DNA from: Candidatus Saccharimonadota bacterium
GTDB lineage: Bacteria; Patescibacteriota; Saccharimonadia; Saccharimonadales; Saccharimonadaceae
NCBI GenBank assembly: GCA_017480035.1
Contig: JAFVBJ010000003.1
Span: 1-64,000 of the forward strand
Length of the DNA: 64,000 nucleotides
Direction: 5' to 3'
How positions within the stretch are numbered: position 1 is the stretch's first letter; the number at the start of each line of letters is the position of its first letter. Below, in pieces: positions 24,606-31,404 of this stretch. The notes below the pieces were generated by a model. That model did not search any database and was not told the DNA's origin. It saw only the letters and a list, made by a program, of their open reading frames with translations. A program made the translations under genes and the position numbers.

Positions 24606-25808
24606 TTATTCACAAACTACCGACGTGAGCATCTCTTTGCATCCCCCAACCGTCGTATTGTAATTGTTTTGATATGTCTCGCGCACATAATTATAAAATT
24701 CTTCGAATTTCGCATAAAGTTTTGCCGTATCAACCAACTCTAAAGGATAAAGCTCCGAAATATCCGGCTCATTTTCCTTTTTCCAAGTATTAAATTCCTG
24801 CTGTTTTTTCTTCATTTCCTCGTTCAACGCATTCAAATCTTCCCCAGTATTATTTCCGTGATGAAAATATGCATTTGCCGCATCAGCTGCCGCTTTTTTA
24901 AGCTCATACCACTTTTCTGCATACTCCTTAAATTCTTTCACGTCCGAACTCGTCAAAATTTCCACTGCTTTTTTCAAATCACTATCCGGCCAGCTTTCTG
25001 AATACGTCGTATCTCCCGAAGCCTCCGCCTTAATCCATTCGTGCCAAGTCGAATATTTATCAAGCGTTTCATTGACATCTTTATTCCCCTCTTTTGCCGC
25101 CGCAATCGCTGTTTTAAGCGTTTCATATCGCCTACGGATTTCCTCATCACGCAGCACTCCAGCCGTATCGCCAACTTTCGTCACCACTGAATCCGAAATT
25201 CCCTCGGCAATCACTTTACAAGCCTCAACATAACCGTTAAACGTGTCATTCGCCGTATATTCATTATTCACATATTCCGCAACTTTATCGCAGTTCGCAT
25301 CCGAACGCAATTTTTGCATCTCATTTCGAAGTTCTTTCGCTGCAAGATATGTTCCCGAATAATCCGTCTTAAACGCTCCCGTGAGAACCCCAAAAACAAT
25401 AATTCCTCCGATAATTAGAACTATCGCGCTCGGAATCGAAATCAAAAGAATTTTCTTCTTCGTCGACATTTTCGTCCTAGCATGTTTCCACCTCTCACGC
25501 ATCGACGGCGTTTTCGGTTTCTCGATTTTTTTCATATGCTCATTTGGACCATATCCAACCGGAAAACCATTGTCCGGCGTCTCTAGCTTCTTCTCAACCA
25601 CCACCGAACTTCCCGTCAAAGGTTCAACAACTTGCACAACTTCCGATTCGGCTATCACCGAATTACCGAATTGCGCTTTCGCTGCCGCCTCTGCTTCAGC
25701 TCCATGTAACGGATTCATATCAATATGTGAATCCTTCACTTCCGGATCATACGAGACATTCTCAGCTTGCTGAACTTCAGGAGCGATGCCCTGCTCTTTG
25801 TTTTCCAT
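24606..25808 (-). CDS. Single-pass membrane protein with helical extracellular domain
   Basis: The 400-residue product has an acidic, disordered cytoplasmic N-terminus (~1-90), a basic patch (RERWKHARTKMSTKKK) and one membrane helix (~120-142). A helix-rich outer domain of about 255 residues contains four Cys that may form disulfides (DANCDKV, VEACKV, GGCKEM, VVCE). No family is recognised. A TATAAT box (25815-25820, minus) lies six bases before ATG, so it is leaderless. Its promoter is back to back with that of the recombinase gene. Confidence 0.7.
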   Translation of the reverse strand: MENKEQGIAPEVQQAENVSYDPEVKDSHIDMNPLHGAEAEAAAKAQFGNSVIAESEVVQVVEPLTGSSVVVEKKLETPDNGFPVGYGPNEHMKKIEKPKTPSMRERWKHARTKMSTKKKILLISIPSAIVLIIGGIIVFGVLTGAFKTDYSGTYLAAKELRNEMQKLRSDANCDKVAEYVNNEYTANDTFNGYVEACKVIAEGISDSVVTKVGDTAGVLRDEEIRRRYETLKTAIAAAKEGNKDVNETLDKYSTWHEWIKAEASGDTTYSESWPDSDLKKAVEILTSSDVKEFKEYAEKWYELKKAAADAANAYFHHGNNTGEDLNALNEEMKKKQQEFNTWKKENEPDISELYPLELVDTAKLYAKFEEFYNYVRETYQNNYNTTVGGCKEMLTSVVCE

Positions 25809-25849
25809 ATCTTGATTATATCATATCTTGCTTATGGTATAATAAAAAT

Positions 25850-26788
25850 ATGTATGTTTCTGATTTAATTCCCGAATTTCTCCAGAGCCTCGAAGTTGAA
25901 AAAGGCCGCTCTCTCTACACTACTCGAAACTACGAGTTATATCTGAACCGTTTTTATGAACTCTGCTCCGAAGACATGACACGCGAACTCGAACCAAAAG
26001 ACATCACTCCCGAAATGCTCCGAAAATATCGCCTGAAGCTCAACCGTTTTGAAGACAACCAAAACCACGAACGCCTCTCGACTTTGACTCAAAGCTATCA
26101 CCTCATCGCTCTCCGCGGTTTTCTGAAATATTTGTCCAAACGTGGCATCAAATCTCTCGATCCGACCCTCGTCGACCTTCCCCACGCCGTAAAAAAACAA
26201 GTCACATTTCTCCATTACGACGAAATTGAACGCTTACTCGCTGAAATCCCTATCGACACCGAAACTGGGCTCAGAGATCGCGCCATCATCGAGCTGCTTT
26301 TCTCCGGTGGACTTCGTGTTTCTGAACTTTGCAACTTAAATCGCGATTCAATTAATCTCGAGCGTCGCGAATTCGTTGTTCGCGGTAAAGGTCGAAAAGA
26401 CCGTCCAATCTTCATCGACCAATCGACCGCCGACTGCATAAAAGATTATCTCGACTACCGCACCGATTCCCTCCCGGCTCTCTTTCTTAACAACTCCAAA
26501 AATCTCCAAACTCCCTCGACCTCTGGTGACTATCGCCGCTTAACTCCGCGCAGTATCGAGCGCATCGTCCAAAATTACGCCAGAAAAGCCGGTATCACAA
26601 AGCACGTCACGCCTCACACTCTTCGCCATTCTTTCGCGACCGACCTCTTAATGAACGGCGCCGACATCCGCTCCGTCCAATCTCTCCTCGGCCATGCCAA
26701 CATCAGCACCACCCAAATCTACACTCACGTCACCGACCCGCACCTTCGCGAAGTACACGAACGTTTTCACACCGAAACAAAGGAGTAG
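25850..26788 (+). CDS. Xer-type tyrosine recombinase
   Basis: Tyrosine recombinases of this class resolve chromosome dimers at dif sites. The 312-residue product has the SAM-like N-terminal domain (residues ~1-100). The catalytic R-K-H-R-H-Y set is visible: SGGLRVSEL, VRGKGRKDRP, HTLRHSFAT, LGHANISTTQIYTHV. Size and layout fit XerC/XerD/XerA rather than phage integrase. A longer upstream frame exists, but the TATAAT box at 25838-25843 lies six bases before this ATG, so this start is preferred and the mRNA is leaderless. Confidence 0.9.
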   Translation: MYVSDLIPEFLQSLEVEKGRSLYTTRNYELYLNRFYELCSEDMTRELEPKDITPEMLRKYRLKLNRFEDNQNHERLSTLTQSYHLIALRGFLKYLSKRGIKSLDPTLVDLPHAVKKQVTFLHYDEIERLLAEIPIDTETGLRDRAIIELLFSGGLRVSELCNLNRDSINLERREFVVRGKGRKDRPIFIDQSTADCIKDYLDYRTDSLPALFLNNSKNLQTPSTSGDYRRLTPRSIERIVQNYARKAGITKHVTPHTLRHSFATDLLMNGADIRSVQSLLGHANISTTQIYTHVTDPHLREVHERFHTETKE

Positions 26789-26800
26789 TATAATAAACTT

Positions 26801-27604
26801 ATGAATATCGATTTTATCGTCCTCTATCTCGCAGCCTTCATCTTTGGCTCAATTTTTGGCTCATTCGCCTGTTGCCAAGCTTGGCGCATTCGTGAAAAAT
26901 CCGAAGGTCGAAATCTCGGAAAACACTCCGTCTGCCTGCACTGCGGCGCAAAATTAAAATGGTATGACAATCTCCCTATCATCAGCTGGCTCGCTCTGAA
27001 AGGAAGGTGCCGAAATTGCCACGAAAAAATCGGCAAAGCCGAAATCCTCTCCGAAATCGGCCTCGGACTCGTCTTTTTCGCTATCGCCTATAAATATTTC
27101 TCGGGTTTCGAAACTGTCGCGAATTTCTTCTCCTCCCCTGTCGAACTTCTCGTCCAGCCCCTCATCCTCCTCGTCGCATTTATTATTTACTGGATTATCC
27201 TCATCTACGACGCAAAATGGGGCGAGCTCCCAATGCTCTTAATGCTCCTCGAAATTCCTTTCGCCATCATTTTCCATATCGCAAGAGGTGGCAACTGGCT
27301 CTACGCCGGCATCGGCACCGGACTTCTCTCCGGACTTTATTACCTACTTTATTTCTTCAGCAAAGAAAAACTCGTTGGCGGCGGTGATTGGTTGCTCTGC
27401 ATCTCAATTGGCCTTTTTCTCGGTCGTTGGGAATTCGCCATCATCGAACTTTTCTTAAGCAACCTCACTGCAACCATCTTCTCCGCCCCACAGGCGCTGA
27501 AAAAAGAGAAAAAACAAATTCCCTTCGGCCCGTTCCTCATTCTCAGCCTCCTCGCTATTCTTCTCGCTTCCGACTACATCCTAAAATTCTTCATCATTTA
27601 TTAG
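26801..27604 (+). CDS. Type IV prepilin peptidase (A24 family)
   Basis: The enzyme removes the leader of type IV pilins and may methylate them. The 267-residue product has the N-terminal cytoplasmic zinc-type CLHC and CRNC pairs (PilD class) and seven to eight membrane segments. The catalytic aspartates sit in IYDAKWGELP and GGGDWLL. Type IV pili serve host attachment and DNA uptake in Saccharibacteria. A TATAAT box (26789-26794) directly behind the recombinase stop lies six bases before ATG. Confidence 0.92.
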   Translation: MNIDFIVLYLAAFIFGSIFGSFACCQAWRIREKSEGRNLGKHSVCLHCGAKLKWYDNLPIISWLALKGRCRNCHEKIGKAEILSEIGLGLVFFAIAYKYFSGFETVANFFSSPVELLVQPLILLVAFIIYWIILIYDAKWGELPMLLMLLEIPFAIIFHIARGGNWLYAGIGTGLLSGLYYLLYFFSKEKLVGGGDWLLCISIGLFLGRWEFAIIELFLSNLTATIFSAPQALKKEKKQIPFGPFLILSLLAILLASDYILKFFIIY

Positions 27605-27785
27605 CTTTTCCACTGAAAAAAAGGGGGGTTCTAGCCGAGGAAAATGTTGCCTAATACTCCCCCGTTAGAAATTTTGAGGTTCAAAAGCGCCCTGCCTGAA
27701 AATCGGTAGGATAATACTATATATATTATGTCCATGGACATTTTATGATAATAAGCCGCTTTTGCGAAAAGTTGTATTTTTGGGT
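27605..27785. other. Leader region upstream of the DGR template
   Basis: No coding frame is present. A perfect 12-bp palindrome TGTCCATGGACA (27729-27740) is flanked by AT-rich inverted stretches. A GGGGG/CCCCC pair lies at the start of the gap. Several TATAAT-like boxes occur (GATAAT 27710-27715, TATATT 27722-27727, GATAAT 27747-27752), but none has a clear -35 box. A promoter for the template RNA is expected here and not proven. Confidence 0.4.
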
Positions 27786-27990
27786 TTATCTCTCTCCGGC
27801 AACGTGAACAATGGCTCCGTCAACAATCAGGGCAGCAACGGCAACTACTGGTCCTCTACGGTCAACAATGCTAACAACGCGTACAACCTGAACCTAAATA
27901 GCTCAAATGTCAACCCAGCAAACAACAACAATAAGAACAACGGGAACTCTGTGCGTTGTGTCGCGCAGTAGTCTCCGGCTCCCCTCCCAG
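27786..27990 (+). repeat. DGR template repeat (TR)
   Basis: This 205-bp stretch aligns without gaps to the variable repeat in the target gene (complement of 29976-30180). They differ at 29 positions, all A in this copy (16 A to T, 10 A to G, 3 A to C), out of 58 A between 27796 and 27955. The last 35 bases, covering the target stop codon and a GC-rich tail, are identical. Read in the target frame it has 23 Asn (AAY) codons, the code that reaches most amino acids and never a stop. It lies 33 bases beyond the end of the RT gene and opposite in orientation to RT and target. Confidence 0.96.
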
Positions 27991-28023
27991 CACCTCAATC
28001 CCCCCAAAAAAATCCACTAAAAC

Positions 28024-29130
28024 CTAAAATCTATACTCAAACCCCGCTAAATCAAACATTTTCTTGCAAATTTTCTTTCCATTCACATTTTTCATATATC
28101 CAAGATACGAAATCATCGAATCATCATCAAGAAATCCCATCGTATATTCCATCGCCGCGTGATGAAAATTATTTTTAAACCTTCTTCCCGGCACAATCAT
28201 ATACGGATAAACCACCATCCCGAGAAACGGCGTCCCGTGCGACACTTCTTGAATATACCGCTTCCTCGGATGCAGCGTCAGCCCAATCGAAATCAAAAAT
28301 TCCGAAATCTTCGGCACATCCGAAAGCGCCCTCTTAAATTCTTCCTCCGTCACCACAAGATAAAAATCATCCACATATCTCCCATAATGCTTCCACCCGA
28401 GCTCAAACGTCACAAATCTATCAAGTTGGTCGAGATAAATATTCGAAACCAGCTGCGACGACAAATTCCCAATCACAATTCCCTGCCCCGGTGGCTGGCA
28501 AAACAAACTCTTGTTGTCCGGCAGCCCATCCCACTCTTTCATCGACCCCCGAATCCTCACTCCTTTCGTCGGGTCATCAAAAATCACTTCCGCCCAAAGT
28601 CCTCGCACCAAATTTTTCAGCCATTCGTGCTTCGCGTCGTATTGCCGCTCAAGCCCCCAACACACCCGTTCAAAAATCCGCTTTCTCGAAAGACTCATGA
28701 AATACCCCTGAATATCAAATTTCAGAACATACGCTTTTCTCGTCCCGTTTCTCGAAACCTGTCGGACATGTTTTTGCATCCGCTTCACTCCGAACAATGT
28801 GCCCTTCCCCACTCTACACGAATACGAATCGTAAATAAATCTCTCGTCCCACCACTTCGCATTTTGATTATAGAGAAAATGGTGCACCACCCTGTCCCGA
28901 AACGGTGCCGCAAAAATCTCCCGCATCACCGGGTCATAGATAATAAACGCGATTCCCCGCCCCGGTTTATATCTGTGATTAATAATATCATCTCTAAGCA
29001 TCACGAGATTTTGCATCGCGTTTAGTTCAAAAGTATGCTCGTCACTCGTCCCGCGCTTATTTTTCCGCGCCTCGAGATACGCTATATATAGTTCGTGCAG
29101 CAGCCACTCGCCTAAATCTTTGCCTTGCAC
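28024..29130 (-). CDS. DGR reverse transcriptase
   Basis: The enzyme copies template RNA with errors at adenines and so rewrites the variable repeat. The 368-residue product has catalytic motif KFDIQGYF (Asp139), the DGR-type motif QGIVIGNLSSQ (~216-226, SQ where retroviral-type RTs differ) and YVDDFYLVV (~252-260), then a short thumb. There is no maturase or RNase H domain, as usual for this class. It overlaps the accessory gene by 19 bases. The RT gene runs toward the template repeat. Confidence 0.95.
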   Translation of the reverse strand: MQGKDLGEWLLHELYIAYLEARKNKRGTSDEHTFELNAMQNLVMLRDDIINHRYKPGRGIAFIIYDPVMREIFAAPFRDRVVHHFLYNQNAKWWDERFIYDSYSCRVGKGTLFGVKRMQKHVRQVSRNGTRKAYVLKFDIQGYFMSLSRKRIFERVCWGLERQYDAKHEWLKNLVRGLWAEVIFDDPTKGVRIRGSMKEWDGLPDNKSLFCQPPGQGIVIGNLSSQLVSNIYLDQLDRFVTFELGWKHYGRYVDDFYLVVTEEEFKRALSDVPKISEFLISIGLTLHPRKRYIQEVSHGTPFLGMVVYPYMIVPGRRFKNNFHHAAMEYTMGFLDDDSMISYLGYMKNVNGKKICKKMFDLAGFEYRF

Positions 29131-29936
29131 GCTGAAAGTTCTTTCCTGACTTTTTCAATCGCTCGAAGTATCGAATACGTCCTCTCCAGCGGCATCAGCC
29201 TCAGTTCCGACACGTTTATCATCTGCGCCGTCATATAGTCGAGCTCCGTTTCCATACTCTCCAGATATTTCTTCATCGCCTCTTTCGACTTACTCGCGAG
29301 ACTATATTCACGCACCAATTTCACCGCTCTTATCGTAATCTCATCCGTAACGGTTCTCCTTCCGACCGGCTCAACTATCCGTATCGCAAAATACGTTTTC
29401 TTTAAAAGCTCCCTGAGCATCATAAAAAGCACCGGATGAATTTCCTCCGGCATCATAATTTTATTTACTTTCGCATACTCGAGCGCCTTCGCCTTCTTCA
29501 TATTCTCAATTTCCGAAGGCAAATACTTTTTCCCGAGGTTATAGATTCGATATTCCGGCTTTATCTCGAGTGGATTGATACTGTTGGCTTCGAGTCTTGT
29601 CTCAAGCATGTCAATGTTTCGGATATTCACCACCCCATCCTCAGATTTGAAATCAAAATCCGAATCTTGGACGAGCTTCGAACCCATTCCAATTCTTTTC
29701 GCAATTTCACAGTGGAAAATGATTGCCGAATTGCCAATCATTTTCCACCAATCCCCATTGTTGTGAATGACAAACAGTTTCGAATAGTTTTTCTTCTCTT
29801 TCTCGAGCGCAAACATCTTCAATTTGAGATACACCGCTTTCTGTTGGTCGCCAATCTTAGCGGCTTTCGTGCGAGCAACTCTGGTCGACTTTTTCGCCAT
29901 TTCATTTGCTGTCATTTTCAGTTCACTTTCTTTCAT
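29112..29936 (-). CDS. DGR accessory protein: MutS-I-like N-terminus plus Avd-like helical bundle
   Basis: DGR reverse transcriptases need an accessory protein (Avd in phage BPP-1, about 125 residues, a four-helix bundle). This product has 274 residues. The C-terminal ~120 residues (LRELLKKTYFAIRIVEPVG to the end) look like an all-helical bundle of Avd size. Residues ~36-90 (YSKLFVIHNNGDWWKMIGNSA, then an Ala-rich helix) resemble the MutS mismatch-recognition domain I pattern GDFYE..G.DA..A. MutS-like accessory proteins have been reported for some DGRs; a fusion of both parts is inferred. It lies between target and RT on the same strand. Confidence 0.7.
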   Translation of the reverse strand: MKESELKMTANEMAKKSTRVARTKAAKIGDQQKAVYLKLKMFALEKEKKNYSKLFVIHNNGDWWKMIGNSAIIFHCEIAKRIGMGSKLVQDSDFDFKSEDGVVNIRNIDMLETRLEANSINPLEIKPEYRIYNLGKKYLPSEIENMKKAKALEYAKVNKIMMPEEIHPVLFMMLRELLKKTYFAIRIVEPVGRRTVTDEITIRAVKLVREYSLASKSKEAMKKYLESMETELDYMTAQMINVSELRLMPLERTYSILRAIEKVRKELSACKAKI

Positions 29937-29975
29937 TCAACTTTATTTCGCCCACACGTTTTGAGCTCAGAGGTT

Positions 29976-30180
29976 CTGGGAGGGGAGCCGGAGACTACTG
30001 CGCGACACAACGCACAGAGAACCCGTGGAACTTATCGTTGAGGTTCGCTGGGTAGACATTCGAGCTAAGTAGGTACAGGTAGTACGCGACGCTAGCACTG
30101 CTGACCGTAGAGGACCAGTAGAAGCCGTAGCCGCCCTGATTGCCGACGGAGCCATAGTACACGTAGCCGGAGAGAGATAA
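29976..30180 (-). repeat. DGR variable repeat (VR)
   Basis: This is the diversified copy of the template, covering the last 61 codons, the stop and 19 bases of 3' flank of the target gene. Relative to the template 19 of 23 Asn codons have changed (to Tyr, Phe, Ser, Leu, Gly, Val, Asp, His), one AGC became GGC and two changes are silent. The invariant end GTCTCCGGCTCCCCTCCCAG is the probable initiation-of-homing (IMH) region. Confidence 0.96.
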
Positions 30181-31227
30181 GTTTGGAATACCTTGCATTA
30201 ATGCAGACGAGTTGTAGTTATTGTAAAGGGTCTGGAACTCGCCGGAAGAACCGCCAGTTGGAAGCCTCCAACCTTTCGGGCAGATATCACTTGAAGCGTT
30301 GCCAGAAGTCAAGCTACTTCCGCCGGTTCCAGCTGTTGCAGTATAGAATGTATAGTAACCGCCATATGTAGAGTCCACATATGCGTTATTGGTATCATAA
30401 GCGTTGAATCCAGAAACTGATGATGCTGGAATCGTGAAGTCTGAAGAAACGTTAGAATCGGAGCTGGTGATGGTCTTATTCGCGATTCTGAGATTCTCTG
30501 TCATCCAAACATTTCCGTCTGCAAGCTTCTTAACGGTATAAGTGTTCCCGTCACGTTCATCTTCAAGCTCGATTGAATCGCCAACGTTCGTAAGCGTAGA
30601 TTTATCGAAGGTTTGCATCGTCAAAGTAACTGGCGGCTCATGCGCAATCACCGAGAAAATCACGCTTTTCGCATAAGTTCCGGCCTTGAGTGTAGAATTA
30701 ACTTTTGCGCCGATATGAACAACATTAGTTTTCTCTGCCGTAGATGGAAAATGATCAAGATTCCTAAGTGTCACTTGATTGCTAAGTGCTGGGATTTTGA
30801 GATAATCCGTCCCGTCGGTCGAATATCCCCATTTATTCGCACCCATCGTCGAACTCGTCACGCTTCCCGAAAAATCTGATGCGATGACATCCGTAATCGA
30901 AGAATCTGTGTTCTCCATATCCGTATCATTGTCGATAGACGAGAAATAGAGTTCGTATCCGCCGGTGCTGTTCGTGCTAACAGTCGCAGTCACCGTCCCA
31001 GAATCAAAAACACCTTCTGGCGTTGGAATGTCATATGTCAGCGCAAGGTTCTCCGTATCAAGCGTCACCGATGCCACCGGATTCACCACCGCCGAAACTT
31101 TTGTTTCCGCTGAATCCGCCGCGTTGCTTTTTACTATCGGTGAGAAAAACGAGAACGTTATCGCCCCAAGCATTGTGAACGCCAAAAAGACGCCCGCCGC
31201 TTTCATTTTTTCCGCATTTTTTGCCAT
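29995..31227 (-). CDS. DGR target: secreted protein with Fib_succ_major (lectin-like) C-terminal domain
   Basis: The product (410 residues from this start) has a signal peptide (hydrophobic VFLAFTMLGAITFSFFSP, then SNAA). A beta-rich domain of about 180 residues follows. The C-terminal domain has the FISUMP signature: VWMTENL, CPKGWRLPTGGSSGEF, YWSSTV and GFSVRCV. The variable residues lie between GYVY and GFSV and would form the ligand-binding face. An earlier ATG at 31257 gives ten more residues. The ATG at 31227 has a GGAGG Shine-Dalgarno and is preferred. Display on the surface and binding of variable ligands (host cell, phage or mucin) are inferred. Confidence 0.93.
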   Translation of the reverse strand: MAKNAEKMKAAGVFLAFTMLGAITFSFFSPIVKSNAADSAETKVSAVVNPVASVTLDTENLALTYDIPTPEGVFDSGTVTATVSTNSTGGYELYFSSIDNDTDMENTDSSITDVIASDFSGSVTSSTMGANKWGYSTDGTDYLKIPALSNQVTLRNLDHFPSTAEKTNVVHIGAKVNSTLKAGTYAKSVIFSVIAHEPPVTLTMQTFDKSTLTNVGDSIELEDERDGNTYTVKKLADGNVWMTENLRIANKTITSSDSNVSSDFTIPASSVSGFNAYDTNNAYVDSTYGGYYTFYTATAGTGGSSLTSGNASSDICPKGWRLPTGGSSGEFQTLYNNYNSSALMQGIPNLSLSGYVYYGSVGNQGGYGFYWSSTVSSASVAYYLYLLSSNVYPANLNDKFHGFSVRCVAQ

Positions 31228-31404
31228 CACTCCTCCATCAACCATAACCTTTTTCATTGTTTTAATGTTTTCCTTTTATTTATCGTTCCTTAACGGTCAG
31301 TTTGTAGGGGCCTTTAAACCAACTAATTTTCAAGAGAGATGAAAATTTTTTTGTTTTTAGGATAAAAGTATACGCAAACGCAATCAAACTCCTTATAAAA
31401 ACGC

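Follow-up and report, generated by a model that had tools for sequence, protein, structure and literature searches.

The stretch of DNA analysed here (the window; 64,000 nt) comes from a Candidatus Saccharibacteria-type genome of 772,806 bases, in three contigs and 97.5% complete. Inspection of the window between positions 27683 and 31257 identified three genes on the minus strand, two related repeats and a putative folded RNA element:

27683–27763, plus strand: putative folded RNA element of ∼80 nt, with an outer stem (P1) and two hairpins (P2, and P3 with a CAUG loop), 22 nt 5′ of the template repeat
27786–27996, plus strand: template repeat (TR), on the strand opposite to the reverse transcriptase and target genes, recognized by its ungapped, A-specific match to the variable repeat
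28024–29130, minus strand: DGR-type reverse transcriptase (RT), 368 aa, intact, with motifs IGNLSSQ and YVDD (PF00078, E = 5e-10)
29112–29936, minus strand: accessory protein, 274 aa, with an Avd-like C-terminal domain and a MutS-domain-I-like N-terminal region, as suggested by profile comparison
29970–30180, minus strand: variable repeat (VR), at the 3′ end of the target gene, with 29 of 63 template A changed vs 1 of 148 other bases
29976–30018, minus strand: IMH-like 3′ end of the VR, 43 bases aligning with TR positions 27948–27990
29995–31257, minus strand: target gene, an open reading frame for a 420 aa protein predicted to be exported from the signal-peptide-like N-terminus read in its sequence
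30004–30516, minus strand: Fib_succ_major (FISUMP) domain of the target (PF09603, over the cut-off), which holds variable residues 365–413

Diversity-generating retroelements (DGRs) are a known route by which bacteria and phages hypermutate chosen proteins. An RT, together with an accessory protein, misincorporates bases specifically at template A positions, and the resulting cDNA replaces the VR from its IMH end. The traits by which a DGR is recognized were found together in the window: a TR/VR pair with differences limited to A, a DGR RT, a VR at the 3′ end of a gene, an Avd-like accessory and an IMH-like end. Positions 27683–31257 are therefore very probably a single DGR that copies its TR into the gene of an exported binder (probability about 0.85).

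The TR (27786–27996, plus strand) aligned with the VR (30180–29970, minus strand) over 211 gap-free columns with 30 mismatches. All but one of these fell at a template A (16 A>T, 10 A>G and 3 A>C); given that A accounts for 63 of the 211 TR bases, the probability of at least 29 of 30 mismatches doing so is 1.3e-14. The sole exception, a C>A change (TR 27991, VR 29975), lies next to the 43 identical bases at the 3′ end. Read in the frame of the target, the TR contains 23 Asn codons, 19 of which are changed in the VR (seven to Tyr, three to Phe, three to Ser, two to Leu, and one each to Gly, Val, Asp and His); this recount returned exactly the figure given in the preliminary description. Codons 399 and 404 each contain a silent A>G change, which favours a mutation process over selection, and one further change is S376G. 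Loop Asn codons could vary freely after an ordinary duplication, by drift or by selection on those codons and with no retrohoming. This explanation has practically no chance of being correct, however: 29 of the 30 mismatches lie at A, some A changes are silent, non-A positions inside the repeat are unchanged, and the same pattern recurs in 65 RT-bearing cassettes; it was rejected. In the first 38 related cassettes inspected, A was changed at 859 of 2124 positions and non-A bases at 27 of 5891.

The same counts bear on whether the element still works. A decayed or dormant DGR, with a target once diversified but now left inactive, would fit the fact that one A-changed VR is a snapshot; moreover, the window lacks a hairpin directly after the VR (the longest stem there is 4 bp), a common though not required DGR trait that reached at least 8 bp in 15 of 70 related loci. 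Against this, all three genes are open, the RT motifs are intact, and 147 of the 148 non-A positions are unchanged, so that the last homing event was recent relative to point mutation. Dormancy thus appears quite improbable, and we infer from the sequence that the cassette is active now.

The target reading frame, which slightly exceeds the span 29976–31227 quoted earlier, matched PF09603 with E = 1.2e-14 (55.5 bits vs a curated cut-off of 33.9) and TIGR02145 with E = 4e-18 (66.7 bits vs 41.65). Its variable half also resembled Lcl_C/DUF1566 (E = 3e-4, under the curated cut-off). The VR covers the last 62 codons of the gene. Fib_succ_major domains are reported to have a C-type-lectin-like fold and are known DGR targets (PMC4159848); in this genome, the two DGR targets were the only proteins to exceed the cut-off for the family. 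The A-specific repeats, the PF09603 match and the signal-peptide-like N-terminus together uphold the original proposal of a DGR acting on a C-terminal Fib_succ_major domain in an exported protein. DGRs of the human microbiome with Fib_succ_major or DUF1566 targets act on exported proteins with the same variable domain family, but occur in other bacteria and with other N-terminal domains (PMC4159848). Within the same phylum, the clade 2 DGRs of Patescibacteria (CPR) are also cell-encoded, and their targets are usually without a recognizable domain (Roux et al. 2021; PMC8144416).

The dominance of Tyr, Phe, Leu and Ser among the new residues had been read as typical of binding surfaces. This stands in part, but much of the spectrum may be mutational: acting alone, the RT of the Bordetella phage BPP-1 DGR converts AAC codons chiefly to Tyr, Ser and Asp (PMC12875486). 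Such a bias at AAC would by itself yield part of the Tyr, the frequency of which is thus weak evidence for the selection of binding residues. When related VRs were pooled, the order of outcomes at 960 AAY codons was Tyr, unchanged Asn, Ser, Gly and Asp. Cys appeared at one of the 960 template Asn codons vs 85 expected from base frequencies (pooled VRs of 50 loci); His and Ile were also low in this set, and Gly and Leu high. The scarcity of Cys at changed AAY codons may reflect either RT bias or selection, two causes that these data do not separate. The template Asn codons were enriched at a spacing of 2 (304 vs 230 expected), as well as at 3 and 5, and depleted at a spacing of 1, and the residue between two Asn codons at spacing 2 was hydrophobic in 62% of cases vs a background of 41%. 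This arrangement agrees with β strands presenting one variable and one core face. Sequence searches for solved structures related to the target or the accessory returned only matches that look like chance.

The N-terminal domain of the target is common to two small secreted proteins, encoded at L009:6557–7141 (minus strand) and L010:4330–5103 (plus strand). The former (contig C3:70557–71141 of the genome) is 41% identical to the target domain over 192 residues, and its gene adjoins pilC-, pilT- and pilB-like genes of a type IV pilus. Cultured Saccharibacteria bind their hosts through type IV pili (PMC12206443). A role of the target in host contact is plausible by way of this shared domain. Diversification might instead serve defence or evasion, the target being a decoy, or a receptor recognized by phages or predators, rather than a means of choosing host cells. 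This purpose was raised for cellular DGR targets by Roux et al. (2021; PMC8144416), yet the domain held in common with the pilus-neighbour protein hints at cell contact, and we regard defence or evasion as the doubtful option. The target most likely binds other cells or surfaces.

Cultured Saccharibacteria grow on other bacteria. A DGR RT was detected in 92 of 174 genomes of the genus (E ≤ 1e-60), with up to four copies per genome, and the DGR targets examined are secreted proteins with a variable domain. With an RT in over half of the sampled species of the genus, and with secreted variable targets, the question of whether hypermutation governs host choice in these epibionts becomes directly testable.

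RTs were classed as DGR-type by the presence of IGNxxSQ and YxDD motifs in an open frame, both of which the window RT contains. It matched PHROG 1423 (E = 4e-76) and aligned with other DGR RTs. Short exact patterns identified no relatives of it in IMG/VR, which is weak evidence against a phage origin. In one related locus (L113) the RT reading frame reaches 561 aa, and the matches of L113, G187 and G164 are split in two near residue 166, which suggests that these longer RTs carry an inserted stretch.

The C-terminus of the accessory protein matched an Avd alignment built from other Patescibacteria with 95% probability (E = 2.6e-8, 108 columns). Its N-terminus resembled MutS domain I in profile–profile comparison with 54% probability (E = 1.3e-4). 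Mismatched controls, in which each half was compared with the partner of the other or with the RT, gave less than 1%, and neither value was reached in 60 column shuffles. Single accessory sequences gave at best E = 0.07 against MutS domain I (PF01624), under the Pfam cut-off, and no protein of the genome exceeded that cut-off. In one related locus (L044) the two parts are separate neighbouring reading frames of 249 and 90 aa, each matching best the profile of its own half. MutS-like (MSL) and Avd proteins have both been reported as DGR accessories (PMC10053308), where they are two types of protein; since both types are known in this role, it is reasonable to view the present accessory, which would hold both in one protein, as a fusion of a weakly MutS-I-like N-terminus and an Avd-like C-terminus.

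In the BPP-1 DGR (Mtd, Avd and bRT) TR and RT are adjacent and share a strand, whereas in the window the TR is antisense to the RT; the two systems are alike in their A-specific TR/VR, DGR RT, Avd-like accessory domain, C-terminal variable domain and IMH-like 3′ match. A scan of RT-bearing loci for A-specific repeat pairs, whatever their strands, yielded a lineage set of 65 distinct cassettes with a GRYVDD-type RT. The TR was antisense to the RT in 62 of the 65, the target being on the RT strand in 51 of these and flipped as well in the other 11. For comparison, 14 DGRs from other Patescibacteria were chosen by their canonical Avd. Here TR and RT were on one strand in 12, the TR was antisense to the RT in two, and in none was the TR alone flipped; unlike the window, most of these controls combined a small Avd with a TR on the RT strand. 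Since the flipped TR is present in 62 of 65 cassettes, and the phylum controls are mostly one-strand, it is a stable trait of the lineage. DGR cassettes are known to vary in orientation (PMC6642488), and TR and VR can lie on opposite strands (PMC3521204). The inverted DGRs of Shewanella, Vibrio and Photobacterium (DiGReF group 4) also have RT and TR on different strands, and these cannot share one transcript (PMC3521204). In that group, however, TR, VR and target all oppose the RT, whereas in the lineage of the window it is mostly the TR alone that is flipped (51 of 65). Compared with L056, one locus (L057) has its accessory, RT and TR in the opposite orientation with respect to the target, as would result if the middle of the cassette had been inverted by recombination between the oppositely oriented TR and VR.

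The folding of TR flanks first showed a layout common to several of them: P1, one joining base, P2 (starting CCU or ACU), P3 and the closing strand of P1. A descriptor search for it (score ≥ 19) matched 17 of ∼64 TR flanks vs none in shuffled and one in reverse-complemented sequences. A covariance model was built from six loci, leaving the window out, and searched against both strands of 94 stretches (1.33 Mb); early MAFFT alignments with P1 or P2 out of register were left out of the models. The model matched the window at 27683–27763 (plus strand) with 38.4 bits (E = 1.4e-5). Seven other new matches lay just 5′ of a TR and on its strand (L186, L195, L095, L190, L106, L101 and L182), and two did not precede a TR, both with E ≥ 0.4 (L228 and a second one in L107). 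In a set of 24 sequences, 97.5% of the pair cells were standard and 10 of 12 pairs had changed on both sides; covariation was 0.61 vs 0.18 in shuffles (0 of 500 reached it), and slid partners paired at 36–55%, although the alignment was fitted to the structure and these pairing and covariation counts lean towards it. Covariation was similar in sets of 12 and 21 sequences. The P3 hairpin, which is outside the model, was present in most copies with a YANG-type loop (CAAG, UACG, UAAG or CAUG), and in P3 G·U exceeded A·C by 26 to 8 (both scored alike), which fits an RNA read from the TR strand.

In three exceptional loci the RNA element (hereafter the leader) goes with the TR and not with the RT. 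L240 has a TR that is sense to the RT, with the leader ∼20 nt upstream of this TR; L241 has an A-rich TR 5′ of the RT on the same strand, again with the leader 5′ of the TR; and L239 contains, at 2441–2604, a second leader copy before a TR-like 3′ end with no variable part. This remnant is apparently a second TR, internally deleted. Across 170 genomes of the genus, 18 matches to the leader were found at E ≤ 0.01, all near a DGR RT, while a phylum-wide search (239 genomes, 208 genera) matched only two genomes, both of this genus. With the final model the leader was detected in ∼25 of ∼68 TR-bearing loci at E < 0.2, always 5′ of the TR, several of these being training sequences. No Rfam family matched the leader at the gathering score or up to E = 1, and no counterpart was found in the open-access literature searched. 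The model did not detect a leader at the second DGR of the same genome, so some cassettes of this kind must do without a leader, unless they have diverged copies that the model misses. A sigma-70 promoter signal before the TR was not above shuffles. RNAalifold returned no conserved structure after the TR, nor any in a plain sequence alignment of the flanks; the 150 nt after the TR folded somewhat better than shuffles (mean z −1.3).

The ∼80 nt element is proposed to form the 5′ domain of the template RNA. Transcription of the plus strand would produce an RNA, presumably a single transcript, with the folded leader followed by the TR, and probably made apart from the RT mRNA. The DGR RT and its Avd-like/MutS-like accessory would copy the TR, misincorporating opposite A, and their complex might use the leader as a landing or stop site. 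Beginning at the 43 matched bases, the mutated cDNA would then overwrite the 3′ end of the target on the opposite strand (mutagenic retrohoming), and the cell would export changing versions of the C-type-lectin-like Fib_succ_major domain. We tentatively suggest, as a possibility short of an even chance, that the template RNA is an RNA gene of its own, antisense to the RT, the 5′ leader of which (P1-P2-P3 with its YANG-type loop) recruits or stops the RT and the fusion protein. In BPP-1 the structured RNA is a spacer 3′ of the TR that recruits bRT-Avd (PMC12875486), whereas in the lineage of the window the conserved fold is 5′ of the TR. If the suggestion is right, the leader does part of the work of the BPP-1 3′ spacer, and this would be a second way of building a DGR priming complex.

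The leader could also lie outside the template RNA, as a separate regulator, a mark of the cassette end, or a transcription stop shielding the TR or RT. Its position near the cassette edge and the detection of copies by the model at only ∼25 of ∼68 TRs would suit such roles. Nevertheless, it stays 5′ of the TR and on its strand in L240, L241 and L239, the excess of G·U over A·C in P3 is on the TR strand, and a T-run terminator pattern is not among the features reported at the leader; a place outside the template RNA is therefore unlikely, and a 5′ domain of that RNA is the reading we prefer. The covarying leader offers a handle on the RNA recognized by the DGR machinery and a search model for template RNAs. 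The kind of element and its Fib_succ_major targets were known already; what goes beyond this is the lineage-wide flipped TR, the fusion accessory and the leader RNA.

The direction of the VR was compared with that of replication, the leading strand being inferred from local GC skew outside the cassette. Of the 54 loci in which the skew was clear, 50 had a VR co-directional with the inferred fork, vs 69% of flanking genes (P = 2e-5, a value that ignores the shared ancestry of the cassettes). Where VR and RT disagreed in direction, the VR was the co-directional partner in 8 of 11 loci, a difference that was not significant. The prevailing co-directionality of the VR matches the laboratory preference of BPP-1 homing for targets co-directional with replication (PMC12875486). 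The GC skew is negative throughout the window and dnaA lies at 165 kb on the same contig, which means that the target is directed away from the likely origin.

A second DGR on another contig of the same genome has the same gene order and a convergent TR, with a target of 665 aa, an accessory of 288 aa and an RT of 372 aa; its repeats differ by 19 A changes and one other. Window positions 25544–27604 were compared with the closest relative (G175, locus L244). The relative has an XerC-like gene, pilD and mscL as neighbours, with no DGR between pilD and mscL, whereas in the window the DGR cassette separates these two; the related DGR of G175, the RT of which is 70% identical, sits elsewhere in the genome (L095). 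Since the site is empty in G175 while its DGR sits elsewhere, the segment at 27.6–31.9 kb was apparently moved, or lost, in one piece. The flanks of the window and G175 have diverged, and no exact cassette junction could be read from them. The named relatives of the RT belong to Candidatus Saccharibacteria MAGs, three of the four from ruminant jejunum.
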